NCBI GenBank assembly: GCA_029251005.1 | Contig: JAQXEE010000130.1 | Coordinates: 67,328-122,238 of the forward strand | Origin: Flavobacteriales bacterium | GTDB taxonomy: Bacteria > Bacteroidota > Bacteroidia > Flavobacteriales_C > GCA-002722245 | DNA: 54,911 bases | Reading direction: 5' to 3' | Part shown: piece after piece, positions 9,101 to 13,345 of the stretch | How positions within the stretch are numbered: the stretch's first letter is position 1 | How the letters are laid out: every line of letters starts with the position of its first letter | Position numbers and translations under genes: made by a program | Notes under the pieces: generated by a model | What the model saw: only the letters and a program-made list of their open reading frames with translations | Database searches by the model: none | Told to the model about the DNA's origin: nothing

Positions 9101-10774
9101 ATGTCGGAATTAAATAAGCACAGTAAAACAGTTACTCAGGATCCAACTCAACCAGCTTCACAAGCTATGTTATATGGAGTAGGATTAACGGATGATGATA
9201 TGAATAAAGCGCAAGTTGGTATTGCTTCTACAGGTTGGGAAGGAAATACATGTAACATGCACTTAAACGGTTTTGCAACAGATATTAAAGCAAGTGTAAA
9301 CGCTTCTGATTTAGTGGGATTAATATTTCATACAATTGGTGTTTCTGATGGGATTTCAAATGGAACAACAGGTATGAAATTTTCATTAGTATCAAGAGAT
9401 ATTATTGCAGATTCGATAGAAACTGTAATGAGTGCTCAGTTTTATGATGCATTGGTTACTGTTGTAGGTTGTGATAAAAACATGCCTGGAGCAATGATGG
9501 CGATTGGAAGATTAAATCGTCCGTCTATCCTTGTTTATGGGGGTACTATTAGTGCTGGTAATTATTGTGGTAAAAAATTAAACATCGTATCTGCTTTTGA
9601 GGCTTTAGGTCAAAAAGCACAAGGAGAGATTAATGATGAAGAATATAAAGGAATAATTAAAAACTCTTGTCCAGGAGCAGGAGCTTGTGGAGGTATGTAT
9701 ACAGCAAACACAATGTCTTCAGCAATTGAAGCGTTAGGGATGTCAATGCCTTACTCTTCATCTAACCCTGCTAATTCACCTGAAAAGGAAAAAGAATTAA
9801 CAGAAGTTGGACCTGCAATTAGAAACTTGATGGAAAAAAATATCCTTCCAAGAGACATCATGACTCGTAAAGCATTTGATAATGCATTAAGAGTTATTAT
9901 AGCTTTAGGAGGATCAACAAATGCGACAATGCATTTAATCGCAATGGCTGATGCTGTTGATGTTGAGTTAACATTGGATGACATTCAAGCAATGAGTGAC
10001 ATCACCCCATTCTTGGCAGATTTAAAACCTTCAGGAAAATACTTAATGGAAGATCTTCACGCAGTTGGTGGTGTACCAGCGGTAATGAAGTATTTGTTAG
10101 AGAAAGGATTGTTACATGGAGATTGTATGACAGTAACAGGAGAAACTTTAGCTGAGAATTTAGCGAAGGTTCCAAGTTTAACTGAAGGACAAGATTTATT
10201 ACGTGAGATTGAAAATCCAATTAAGCCAGAAGGTCATTTACAAATCCTTTATGGAAATATAGCAACTGAAGGATCTGTAGCTAAAATTACAGGTAAAGAA
10301 GGAACTAAGTTTGTTGGACCAGCGGTTGTATTTAACGATGAGTTTGCTGCAATTGATGGAATACTTGACGGAACGGTAAAGAAAGGTAACGTAATCGTTA
10401 TTCGTTTTGAAGGACCAAAAGGCGGACCAGGGATGCCGGAAATGTTAAAACCAACTTCTGCTGTTATGGGAGCTGGATTAGGAAAAGATGTTGCTTTAAT
10501 TACTGATGGTAGATTCTCTGGAGGATCACACGGTTTTGTTGTAGGTCACGTTTCTCCTGAAGCTCAATTAGGTGGTGTTATCGGGTTGATTAACGATGGT
10601 GATATTATTACTGTTGATGCTGAAGAAAATGTACTTAATGTCGATCTTACCGTAGAAGAATTAGAACAGAGAAGAAAATTATGGAAGCCGAAAGAAATTC
10701 CAAAAAGAGGGATTTTAGGGAAATATGCTCGACAAGTTGGGAGTGCATCTCAAGGATGTTTAACTGATAAATAA
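9101..10774 (+). CDS. ilvD: Dihydroxy-acid dehydratase
   Basis: It dehydrates 2,3-dihydroxy-3-methylbutanoate/pentanoate to the 2-oxo acids in valine, isoleucine and leucine synthesis, in the cytoplasm. Its 557 residues are normal for the IlvD/Edd family. The three iron-sulfur cysteines are visible: Cys51 in EGNTCNMHL, Cys124 in VGCDKNMPG and Cys196 in [15 protein letters not shown]. The C-terminal substrate site [19 protein letters not shown] is intact. It is followed by ilvB-ilvN on the same strand after a 285-bp spacer that carries its own regulatory elements. The ilv genes here may therefore be expressed from two promoters. Confidence 0.97.
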
Positions 10775-10860
10775 GGTTTGGCAGAGTATCTTTTTGTGGT
10801 TTAAGAAACTATAAATCAATCTGTTAAGACCTTGTTTTGTGGTTTGAACCTCGGAGGGTA

Positions 10861-10900
10861 TTTTAAATAATTCAAAATCTGAATTTAGAATTATTTAAAA
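10861..10900. repeat. 13-bp inverted repeat upstream of the ilvB leader
   Basis: TTTTAAATAATTC (10861-10873) and GAATTATTTAAAA (10888-10900) are perfect inverted copies separated by 14 nt. It is AT-only apart from one C/G pair and has no T-run, so a protein-binding dyad or an upstream DNA element is more likely than a terminator. Function is inferred only. Confidence 0.5.
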
Positions 10901-10914
10901 CATCAATATCTTTA
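10884..10914 (+). promoter_or_regulatory. Candidate ilvB leader promoter
   Basis: TTTA (10884-10887), exactly 19 nt, then TATCTTTA (10907-10914). Compared with the Bacteroidetes TTTG-N19-TAnnTTTG pattern, the spacing is ideal but each box has G replaced by A. The right arm of the inverted repeat lies inside the spacer. It would start transcription at or very near the leader ATG. Confidence 0.35.
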
Positions 10915-10919
10915 TATAA

Positions 10920-10979
10920 ATGAGACATTTAAAAGTAATATCAGTCGAGCTTGTTCTAAGATCATTATTTGGTTTTTAA
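10920..10979 (+). CDS. Candidate ilvB leader peptide (attenuator)
   Basis: A 19-codon ORF encodes MRHLKVISVELVLRSLFGF. Eight of its 19 residues are Leu, Val or Ile, clustered at positions 4-16. It sits 80 bp before ilvB and is followed by a strong hairpin with a T-run just before the structural gene, which is the layout of amino-acid attenuators. The last codons (GGT TTT TAA) can pair with the left arm of that hairpin, giving a possible antiterminator. No Shine-Dalgarno sequence is seen, as is usual for this phylum. It is inferred from position and composition; chance cannot be excluded for so short an ORF. Confidence 0.45.
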   Translation: MRHLKVISVELVLRSLFGF

Positions 10980-11010
10980 GTCCGAGATTTGCTTTGAAAT
11001 AAATAAAACT

Positions 11011-11047
11011 AAAAGCCTTTCTCACATAGTAAGAAAGGCTTTTTTTT
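11011..11047 (+). terminator. Terminator / candidate attenuator in front of ilvB
   Basis: AAAAGCCTTTCT (11011-11022) and AGAAAGGCTTTT (11032-11043) form a perfect 12-bp stem with a 9-nt loop, and eight Ts span 11040-11047. The ilvB ATG follows only 12 bp later, leaving no room for another promoter. Transcripts must therefore read through it to express ilvB. GGTTTTTA (10971-10978) can form 8 pairs (one G-U) with TAAAAGCC (11010-11017), which would disrupt the terminator. Confidence 0.75.
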
Positions 11048-11059
11048 AATCGGATTAAA

Positions 11060-12763
11060 ATGGAAAAAACAATTAAGAAAGTTACTGGTGCAGAGGCCGT
11101 AGTTTTAAGTTTGTTGGAAGAAGGGGTAGAGAAAGTTTTTGGTTATCCAGGAGGAGCAATTATGCCTGTTTACGATGAGTTTTATAAATATCGAGATCGA
11201 ATTAAGCATATACTAGTACGCCACGAACAAGGCGCAACGCACGCTGCTCAAGGTGAAGCAAGAGTTAAAAATAAAACAGGTGTTGCAATAGCAACTTCAG
11301 GCCCTGGTGCAACTAATTTAATTACAGGTATTGCCGATGCACAAATCGATAGTACACCAATGGTGTGTATCACAGGGCAGGTTCCATCTCACCTTTTAGG
11401 AACCGATGCATTCCAAGAAACTGATATTATTGGCATTTCTTCACCGGTTGTTAAATGGAGTTTTCAAGTTACTAAGGCAGAGGAGATTCCTTGGGCGATA
11501 GCGAAGGCGTTTTACATCGCAAACTCAGGAAGGCCTGGTCCTGTTTTAATTGATATTACAAAAGATGCTCAGTTTTCAGAGTTTGACTTTGAGTACAAAA
11601 AGTGTGATTTTGTAAGGTCTTATAACCCAACTGTTGAGGTAAGTTTAGATCAGGTTAAAGATGCTGCGCAAGCCATTAATAGCGCTAAAAAGCCAATGAT
11701 GATCGTTGGTCATGGTGTATTATTGGGAGATGCACAAAAAGAAGTTTTAAAAGTTGTAGAAAAAGCAAAAATTCCTGTTGTAAATACATGGCTAGGAGCT
11801 TCTGCTTTTCCAACTCAGCATGAACTTTTTAAAGGAATGGTAGGGATGCACGGTTCGTATGCACCTAATCTTTTAACAAATGAATGTGATGTTTTAATTG
11901 CCGTAGGTATGCGTTTTGATGATCGTGTTACTGGTGATTTAAGTAGATATGCCTCTCAGGCAAAAGTTGTTCATTTCGAACTTGATTTTTCTGAAATAAA
12001 TAAGAATGTAAAAGCTGATTATCCGGTTTTAGGAAATTGTAAAGAATCTTTAATAGCTCTTGATCCAATGATCATAGAGTCGGATGGTAGAGATGAATGG
12101 TTTTCAAGATGGGATGAGTTAGAACAAAAAGAAGACGAAATAGTTGTTCAGCCTGACGTCAATCCAGCGGAGGGTTCTATTAGAATGGCTGAGGTTGTTA
12201 GGCGTTTGAGTGAAATAACAGAAGGGCAAGCTATTATTGTTACTGATGTGGGTCAGCACCAAATGATTACCGCGCGTTATTACCAGTTTATGGATACCAA
12301 TACGAACGTAACTTCTGGAGGATTAGGAACAATGGGGTTTGGCTTACCAGCAGCAATAGGTGCTAAGGTTGCCCGTCCAGAAAAAGAGGTTGTTGCTATT
12401 ATTGGTGATGGTGGTTTTCAAATGACGCTTCAAGAACTGGGGGTTATTATGCAGGAAAAAATCCCGGTAAAAATCTTAATTCTTAACAATGAATTTTTAG
12501 GAATGGTGCGGCAGTGGCAACAGTTGTTTTTCGATAAGAGATATGCTGAAACTGTTATTGAAAGTCCAAGTTTTGTGAAGTTAGCAGATGCTTACGGTAT
12601 AAAAGGGAAATCAATTTCTGAAAGAGGCGATTTAATGGGCGCTTTAACAGAAATGTTAGATTCTAAAGAATCTTTTTTATTGGAGGTGATGGTTGAAAAG
12701 GAGGGGAATGTATTTCCAATGGTTCCAGCTGGGGCTAGTGTTGCTGAGTGTAGATTAAAATAA
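11060..12763 (+). CDS. ilvB: Acetolactate synthase, large (catalytic) subunit
   Basis: This thiamine-diphosphate enzyme condenses two pyruvates, or pyruvate plus 2-oxobutyrate, at the first common step of valine and isoleucine synthesis. It has 567 residues with the standard three-domain order. The catalytic Glu56 is in LVRHEQGATHAAQG, FAD-domain segments lie mid-protein (VGMRFDDRVTGD), and the thiamine-diphosphate/Mg motif is IGDGGFQMTLQEL followed by ILNNEFLGMVRQWQ. Its small subunit follows after 21 bp. The gene starts just after a terminator-like hairpin that probably controls it. No ilvC, ilvA or leu genes follow here, unlike many relatives. Confidence 0.96.
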   Translation: MEKTIKKVTGAEAVVLSLLEEGVEKVFGYPGGAIMPVYDEFYKYRDRIKHILVRHEQGATHAAQGEARVKNKTGVAIATSGPGATNLITGIADAQIDSTPMVCITGQVPSHLLGTDAFQETDIIGISSPVVKWSFQVTKAEEIPWAIAKAFYIANSGRPGPVLIDITKDAQFSEFDFEYKKCDFVRSYNPTVEVSLDQVKDAAQAINSAKKPMMIVGHGVLLGDAQKEVLKVVEKAKIPVVNTWLGASAFPTQHELFKGMVGMHGSYAPNLLTNECDVLIAVGMRFDDRVTGDLSRYASQAKVVHFELDFSEINKNVKADYPVLGNCKESLIALDPMIIESDGRDEWFSRWDELEQKEDEIVVQPDVNPAEGSIRMAEVVRRLSEITEGQAIIVTDVGQHQMITARYYQFMDTNTNVTSGGLGTMGFGLPAAIGAKVARPEKEVVAIIGDGGFQMTLQELGVIMQEKIPVKILILNNEFLGMVRQWQQLFFDKRYAETVIESPSFVKLADAYGIKGKSISERGDLMGALTEMLDSKESFLLEVMVEKEGNVFPMVPAGASVAECRLK

Positions 12764-12784: not shown

Positions 12785-13345
12785 ATGAGCGCAGATAATA
12801 TTGAAAGATTTACGATCTCTGTTTATGCTGAAAACCACATTGGTTTAGCAGGAAGATTAATGCAGATCTTTACAAGGCGAAAGATAAATATTGATAGTTT
12901 AACAACTTCGGAAAGTGAAATCGAGGGCATTTATCGTTTTACAATTGTAATCCATGTAACTGAAGACCAAGTGGTTAAGGTTGTTAATCAAATAAAGAAA
13001 ATTGTGGATGTAATGACTGCGTTTTTCTTTAGCGAAGATGAAATCGTATATCAAGAAATCGCGTTATATAAAATCAAATCTTCAACACTTTTAGGAAGTA
13101 ATGTTGAAATGGTTGTTCGTAAAAATGCAGCAAGAATTCTTTATGTTGATCAAGAATTTACAGTAATTGAAAAGACAGGTCACAAAGAAGAAACACAAGA
13201 GCTTTTTGATAAGTTAAAACCTTTCGGGATTTTAGAGTTTGTACGTTCGGGTAGAGTAGCAATTGCTCGTCCAATGCCAAACCTTCACTCTTGGTTAGAA
13301 GAAGTTGGTTTAACGGATAAGTTTTTGGTGAATCCTAAAAAGTAA
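12785..13345 (+). CDS. ilvN: Acetolactate synthase, small (regulatory) subunit
   Basis: The 186-residue regulatory partner of IlvB. The N-terminal ACT domain (residues about 7-80) begins TISVYAENHIGLAGRLMQIF and contains the NIDSLTTSESEIEGIYRFTI segment typical of IlvN/IlvH. This domain binds valine and confers feedback inhibition in characterised enzymes. The C-terminal half matches the ALS_ss_C type, ending in SGRVAIARP. It is co-transcribed with ilvB and ends before a clear terminator. IlvN versus IlvH cannot be separated by sequence alone; the single copy makes the name conventional. Confidence 0.94.
   Translation: MSADNIERFTISVYAENHIGLAGRLMQIFTRRKINIDSLTTSESEIEGIYRFTIVIHVTEDQVVKVVNQIKKIVDVMTAFFFSEDEIVYQEIALYKIKSSTLLGSNVEMVVRKNAARILYVDQEFTVIEKTGHKEETQELFDKLKPFGILEFVRSGRVAIARPMPNLHSWLEEVGLTDKFLVNPKK

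Follow-up and report, generated by a model that had tools for sequence, protein, structure and literature searches.

Does the short spacer in front of ilvB in a Flavobacteriales bacterium hold an attenuator, in which ribosomes on a tiny ORF with many codons for branched-chain amino acids (BCAAs) decide whether the gene is transcribed? Leader-peptide attenuation is a textbook mechanism, and in the enterobacterial ilvGMEDA, ilvBN and leuABCD operons, the BCAA genes are preceded by a BCAA leader ORF, an intrinsic terminator and 1:2, 2:3 and 3:4 pairings that exclude one another. An earlier note on this DNA had proposed an attenuator of this kind before ilvB. In our analysis, the element is probably a ribosome-mediated transcription attenuator controlling ilvBN, and the proposal is backed by the architecture of the sister genus and by leaders upstream of ilvD in many Bacteroidota.

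The window, that is, the whole stretch of 54,911 nt that was analysed, carries all features described here on its forward (+) strand. The element lies between ilvD (dihydroxy-acid dehydratase, 9101-10774) on its 5' side and the controlled gene ilvB (acetolactate synthase large subunit, 11060-12763), which is followed by ilvN (acetolactate synthase small subunit, 12785-13345). All three are identified by NCBIfam equivalogs over cut-off (TIGR00110, TIGR00118 and TIGR00119, respectively), and the names ilvD and ilvB given earlier therefore hold. ilvN is probably controlled together with ilvB, on a transcript that the two would share.

One component is an intrinsic terminator (segments 3:4) at 11011-11047, with a 12-bp stem, a 9-nt loop and eight Ts. 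Its arms are AAAAGCCTTTCT (11011-11022) and AGAAAGGCTTTT (11032-11043), the T run covers 11040-11047, and the ilvB ATG follows at 11060, 12 nt past the T run, exactly as the earlier note had described this perfect hairpin. When the spacer was dinucleotide-shuffled 1000 times, no hairpin of at least 10 bp combined 4 G-C pairs with a T run, so the terminator is not a product of chance. As in known attenuators, it stands between the leader ORF and the first controlled gene.

The leader-peptide ORF, encoding MRHLKVISVELVLRSLFGF, was read directly at 10920-10979, with its ATG at 10920 and its TAA stop at 10977-10979, in a stop register shared with the relatives L005 and L007. It has 19 codons, eight of which are BCAA codons (L4, V6, I7, V9, L11, V12, L13 and L16), and the earlier reading of it was correct to the base. 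It is important to note that an ATG ORF of 15 to 30 codons is present in 49% of dinucleotide-shuffled spacers, that 5.9% of such ORFs match its BCAA content (8/18; P = 0.059), and that its longest BCAA run is 3. The BCAA richness of this ORF by itself is thus only suggestive and weak evidence for attenuation, and it is the relatives, rather than the ORF alone, that decide. The same shuffles, together with the position of the hairpin 3' of ilvD, lend something to a rival explanation, namely an ordinary end-of-gene terminator of ilvD with a chance ORF beside it; ilvB expression would then come from read-through or a promoter of its own, and attenuation would play no part. But the hairpin lies 12 nt before ilvB and 3' of a promoter conserved in the genus, and the sister-genus leaders described below make this explanation very improbable.

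The pairings expected of an attenuator can be drawn in the window, and they are mutually exclusive in silico. Segment 1 (10927-10947) lies within codons 3-10 of the ORF and holds L4, V6, I7 and V9; it forms a helix with segment 2 (10983-11000) in the minimum free energy (MFE) fold, which shows both 1:2 and 3:4, and would do so in the RNA as long as no stalled ribosome occupies it. Segment 2 can instead pair, via GAGA (10984-10987) and GCTTT (10991-10995), with segment 3 (11011-11023), the terminator 5' arm, via 11012-11016 and 11020-11023. The resulting 2:3 duplex, GAGA-uuu-GCUUU (10984-10995) with AAAGC-cuu-UCUC (11012-11023), has -10.1 kcal/mol and beats 97.5% of shuffles (P = 0.025), while the corresponding duplex of L005, the sister species, has -10.9 kcal/mol and is matched by 0/200 shuffles. 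This pairing is most likely the antiterminator competing for the terminator 5' arm. Two results weigh against the attenuator reading: the window 1:2 fold alone is not significant (z = -1.1), and in a cross test the window segment 2 takes 14th place of all segments when matched to the window's own terminator arm. The 1:2 helix with a segment inside the ORF is seen in the window MFE fold and in the covariation across the whole set of leaders (see below).

The earlier scheme included an antiterminator, overlooked segment 1 inside the ORF, and probably chose the wrong partner. Its candidate GGTTTTTA (10971-10978) can indeed pair with TAAAAGCC (11010-11017) in the left arm of the terminator, with 8 pairs including one G-U. 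This pairing was set aside since it has -5.8 kcal/mol, versus -10.1 kcal/mol for GAGAtttGCTTT (10984-10995) just past the stop codon; in L005 a C replaces its first G, which costs the outer pair but adds an inner A-U pair. A pairing of CTCGGA (10850-10855) with TCCGAG (10981-10986) was also dropped, as CTCGGA sits 5' of the candidate promoter.

If these pairings form in the RNA, the element would work as follows. An RNA starting near 10919 would encode the 19-codon leader peptide. With sufficient Leu, Val and Ile, the ribosome would reach the stop codon and mask segment 2, the 3:4 terminator would form, and the polymerase would halt before ilvB. When charged BCAA-tRNA is scarce, the ribosome would stall at Leu4, Val6, Ile7 or Val9 in segment 1, or soon after; segment 2 would then be free to pair with segment 3 as the antiterminator, and ilvB would be transcribed. 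Without any translation, 1:2 and 3:4 would form and transcription would stop. By standard ribosome footprints, the geometry would permit this: a stall at Leu4, Val6, Ile7, Val9 or codons 11-13 should leave segment 2 free, and one that has reached the stop codon (10977-10979) should mask the first half of that segment, in keeping with the classical scheme.

A candidate Bacteroidetes-type sigma-A promoter lies at 10883-10914, with a TTTA -33 box at 10884-10887, a 19-nt spacer and the -7 box TATCTTTA at 10907-10914 (consensus used, TAnnTTTG). Its elements ATTTA (10883-10887) and TCAATATnTTT (10903-10913) are unchanged at each of the genus's five loci. The -7 box is reported to occupy -12 to -5 relative to the RNA start (PMC9723704), and the predicted start in the window is near 10919, one base 5' of the leader ATG. 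The leaderless translation proposed earlier is therefore predicted for the window (5' UTR of ~1 nt) but not for its closest relative, L005, where promoter and ATG lie 12 bases further apart (~13 nt). Among 44 leaders, the predicted 5' UTR is below 10 nt in 17 and mostly below 20 nt, as judged from the best box match (at least 5/6) within 60 nt. In two Bacteroidota transcriptomes (PMC9723704, PMC7366714), leaderless or very short 5' UTRs are reported for 5.5% and 3.7% of mRNAs; the excess among leaders is a lead, not a result, because box matching takes the best match rather than a mapped start. Bacteroidetes are described as starting translation naturally without Shine-Dalgarno sequences (PMC6847099), and thus no special mechanism is needed for the leader.

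The relatives were examined within the family, which comprises ten genomes in two genera and is the only family of the order as sampled. In five genomes of the sister genus (L008-L012), an unmistakable version of the attenuator precedes ilvB, to judge from its sequence. The leaders MNTKNNNIIVVVVSSLG, MNFLNNNISVVVVSSLG, MKRSIQNISVVVVVSLRR, MKTSTKNIISVVVVVS and MKISTKNIISVVVVVS, each ending at a stop codon, contain 4 to 5 consecutive Val codons and BCAA runs of 4 to 6, and a terminator (AAGCCTTTCTC...AAAGGCTTTTTT) lies 3' of the ORF. The terminator 5' arm AAGCCTTTCTC is identical in the window, in L005 and in all five of these leaders, and the place before ilvB and the GAGA...GCT core of the antiterminator are shared as well. 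The difference lies in the codons, with a run of at least four Val/Ile codons in the sister genus versus mixed, dispersed Leu/Val/Ile codons in the window. In two sister-genus genomes (G007 and G009), the leader precedes ilvB while the upstream neighbour is not ilvD (peptidase-like by eye), and the leader thus belongs to ilvB. This and the textbook form of these leaders both speak against an ordinary ilvD terminator. In L008-L012 and many leaders of the phylum, the antiterminator often starts at the leader stop codon (GTGAG... or TAGAGG...), so that stop codon and segment 2 overlap.

The window's own genus gives a more mixed picture. The leader of L005, MRHLKVTSVEFVLRTQVRF, keeps all 19 codons, and the terminator, antiterminator block, stop position and promoter are retained between it and the window; GAGATTTGCTTTGAAATAAAT in segment 2 is identical. 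In L007, the ORF has BCAA at 5 of 23 positions and ends in the same register (VLLRSFVPF before the stop, versus LVLRSLFGF in the window) and the terminator is weaker (-9.9 kcal/mol). The ORF of L014 is BCAA-poor and its spacer contains no convincing terminator, and no clear ATG ORF was found in the L006 spacer. L006 and L014 are the two ilvD-ilvB-ilvN clusters of one genome (G003, with 5% contamination reported), in which the terminator is kept in one ilvD-ilvB spacer, with none convincing in the other. BCAA residues in the genus leaders number 8/18, 6/18, 5/23 and 3/14, with no run above 3. Of the features whose conservation the earlier note had proposed to check, ORF length is kept in the closest relative, L005, while its BCAA codons number 6, compared with 8 in the window, and others of the genus have fewer still.

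The leaders of the window's genus have no long BCAA runs, and one copy is without a convincing terminator; regulation here may accordingly be weakened, and the BCAA sensor may be on its way out in this genus. The main rival reading is an eroding attenuator of BCAA-sensing ancestry, whose control codons are now ineffective and whose terminator provides either near-fixed read-through or a general response to translation. The low BCAA counts and short runs, as against sister-genus runs of 4 to 6, the weaker terminator of L007, the lack of a convincing one in L014, and the amino-acid changes between L005 and the window, which are mostly non-synonymous, all point that way. However, terminator, antiterminator block, ORF length and both pairings persist between the window and L005, and segment 1 of the window still holds four BCAA codons; we consider this reading unlikely. 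It is decidedly doubtful, and less likely still, that BCAA-codon sensing has given way in the genus to a near-leaderless, BCAA-poor leader whose terminator senses translation initiation or general ribosome supply; if true, the same scaffold would sense another signal in the window's genus than in its sister genus. On the preferred reading, an attenuator controlling ilvBN, the dilution of BCAA codons in the genus could make the BCAA response here weaker or less specific than that of relatives.

Terminators upstream of biosynthetic genes are also used by other sensors, such as a T-box, a riboswitch or an RNA-binding protein. No cis-regulatory Rfam family reaches its gathering threshold in the window, and amino-acid leader families do so neither there nor in 10 relatives. 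The sub-threshold matches include the amino-acid leaders Thr_leader (26.2 bits, versus a gathering score of 55) and Phe_leader, at less than half of their cut-offs, and the leader is only ~130 nt long. Such a sensor is hardly credible here. A similar family-wide scan found no leaders before ilvC or leuA within 1.5-kb flanks.

How widely such leaders occur was surveyed at 80 named ilvB loci, 68 of them from Bacteroidota, in which the region upstream of the ilvD position was scanned. The rule called for an ATG ORF of 8 to 40 codons that has either 40% BCAA or four BCAA codons in a row, and a terminator within 130 nt. A leader with terminator was found upstream of ilvD in 28 of the 68 Bacteroidota loci, whereas shuffles averaged 0.25 and the reverse strand yielded 4. 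A few of these leaders look doubtful by eye (e.g., L050 and L077), and for L031 the ORF picked by the rule is shorter than the leader evident there. A second sample of 61 ilvD upstream regions from genomes of the same class gave 9 leaders versus 0.1 in shuffles, and it is the cleaner test because the rule had been tightened after a first look at the first loci. The lower share is due at least in part to other genes (by eye, ilvE in several) directly before ilvD in the class-wide loci, so that a leader would sit further upstream. These sequences suggest that leader-peptide BCAA attenuation is common in Bacteroidota, not only in proteobacteria, which alone were named as users in the earlier note. 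Upstream of ilvD in L028, L031 and L045, two units of leader ORF and terminator stand in tandem, MKTIKNILVLIISIIIIQ and MKNFSLINIILLIIVIIIPGYWE in L045, as if two attenuators were placed in series.

In the set of 35 leaders, the ORF was paired with the segment at and beyond the stop codon, and that segment with the terminator 5' arm. Own partners were compared with cross-species partners after removal of row and column effects, in 20,000 permutations. Both alternative helices fit their own partner better than those of other species (0/20,000 permutations each), and attenuation depends on exactly such a pair of alternative helices. The window shares this layout of four segments.

The window resembles the enterobacterial ilv and leu attenuators, as generally known, in its BCAA leader ORF, its 1:2/2:3/3:4 pairings and its intrinsic terminator. 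It differs in that no Shine-Dalgarno site is seen and the predicted 5' UTR is very short, and also in the TAnnTTTG-type promoter, the few consecutive BCAA codons and the lack of an Rfam leader match. A comparative attenuator survey by Vitreschak and colleagues in 2004 reportedly mentioned Bacteroidetes too. In 2010, the mechanism was said to be unshown beyond Proteobacteria and Actinobacteria (PMC2965389). In the latter, Corynebacterium ilvBNC also has a leader ORF and attenuator before ilvB, as described (PMC10272879, PMC11857589). Clues to leader-peptide attenuation upstream of amino-acid operons were reported in 2021 for Flavobacterium psychrophilum, of the same phylum, by the same proposed mechanism and without Shine-Dalgarno sites; the main text of that report does not name ilv operons (PMC9723704). 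The type of mechanism has been established for many years in bacteria of other groups, and the window is most likely one more, diverged case, perhaps a weakening one. Leader-peptide attenuation demands fast, well-timed translation of a tiny ORF, and since Bacteroidota mRNAs lack Shine-Dalgarno sites, widespread attenuators in this phylum are a natural test bed for the timing of Shine-Dalgarno-independent initiation against transcription. The set of ~35 leaders, which share two covarying alternative helices and in some cases stand in tandem, is usable for reporter tests.

Two further observations were made. A perfect 13-bp inverted repeat, TTTTAAATAATTC / GAATTATTTAAAA with a 14-nt loop, spans 10861-10900, immediately 5' of the -7 box and overlapping the -33 box. 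None of 500 shuffles reached 13 bp, and 9 of the 13 pairs hold in L005 by hand count; it is a possible operator, or chance in AT-rich DNA. Outside the phylum, two Anaerolineae loci (L101 and L102; Chloroflexota) have a BCAA-rich leader ORF, MHRQIIVNLLSLVLVLIIMSAS and MKRAYSFTLIISLIIAIVILTNG, respectively, with a terminator before ilvB.
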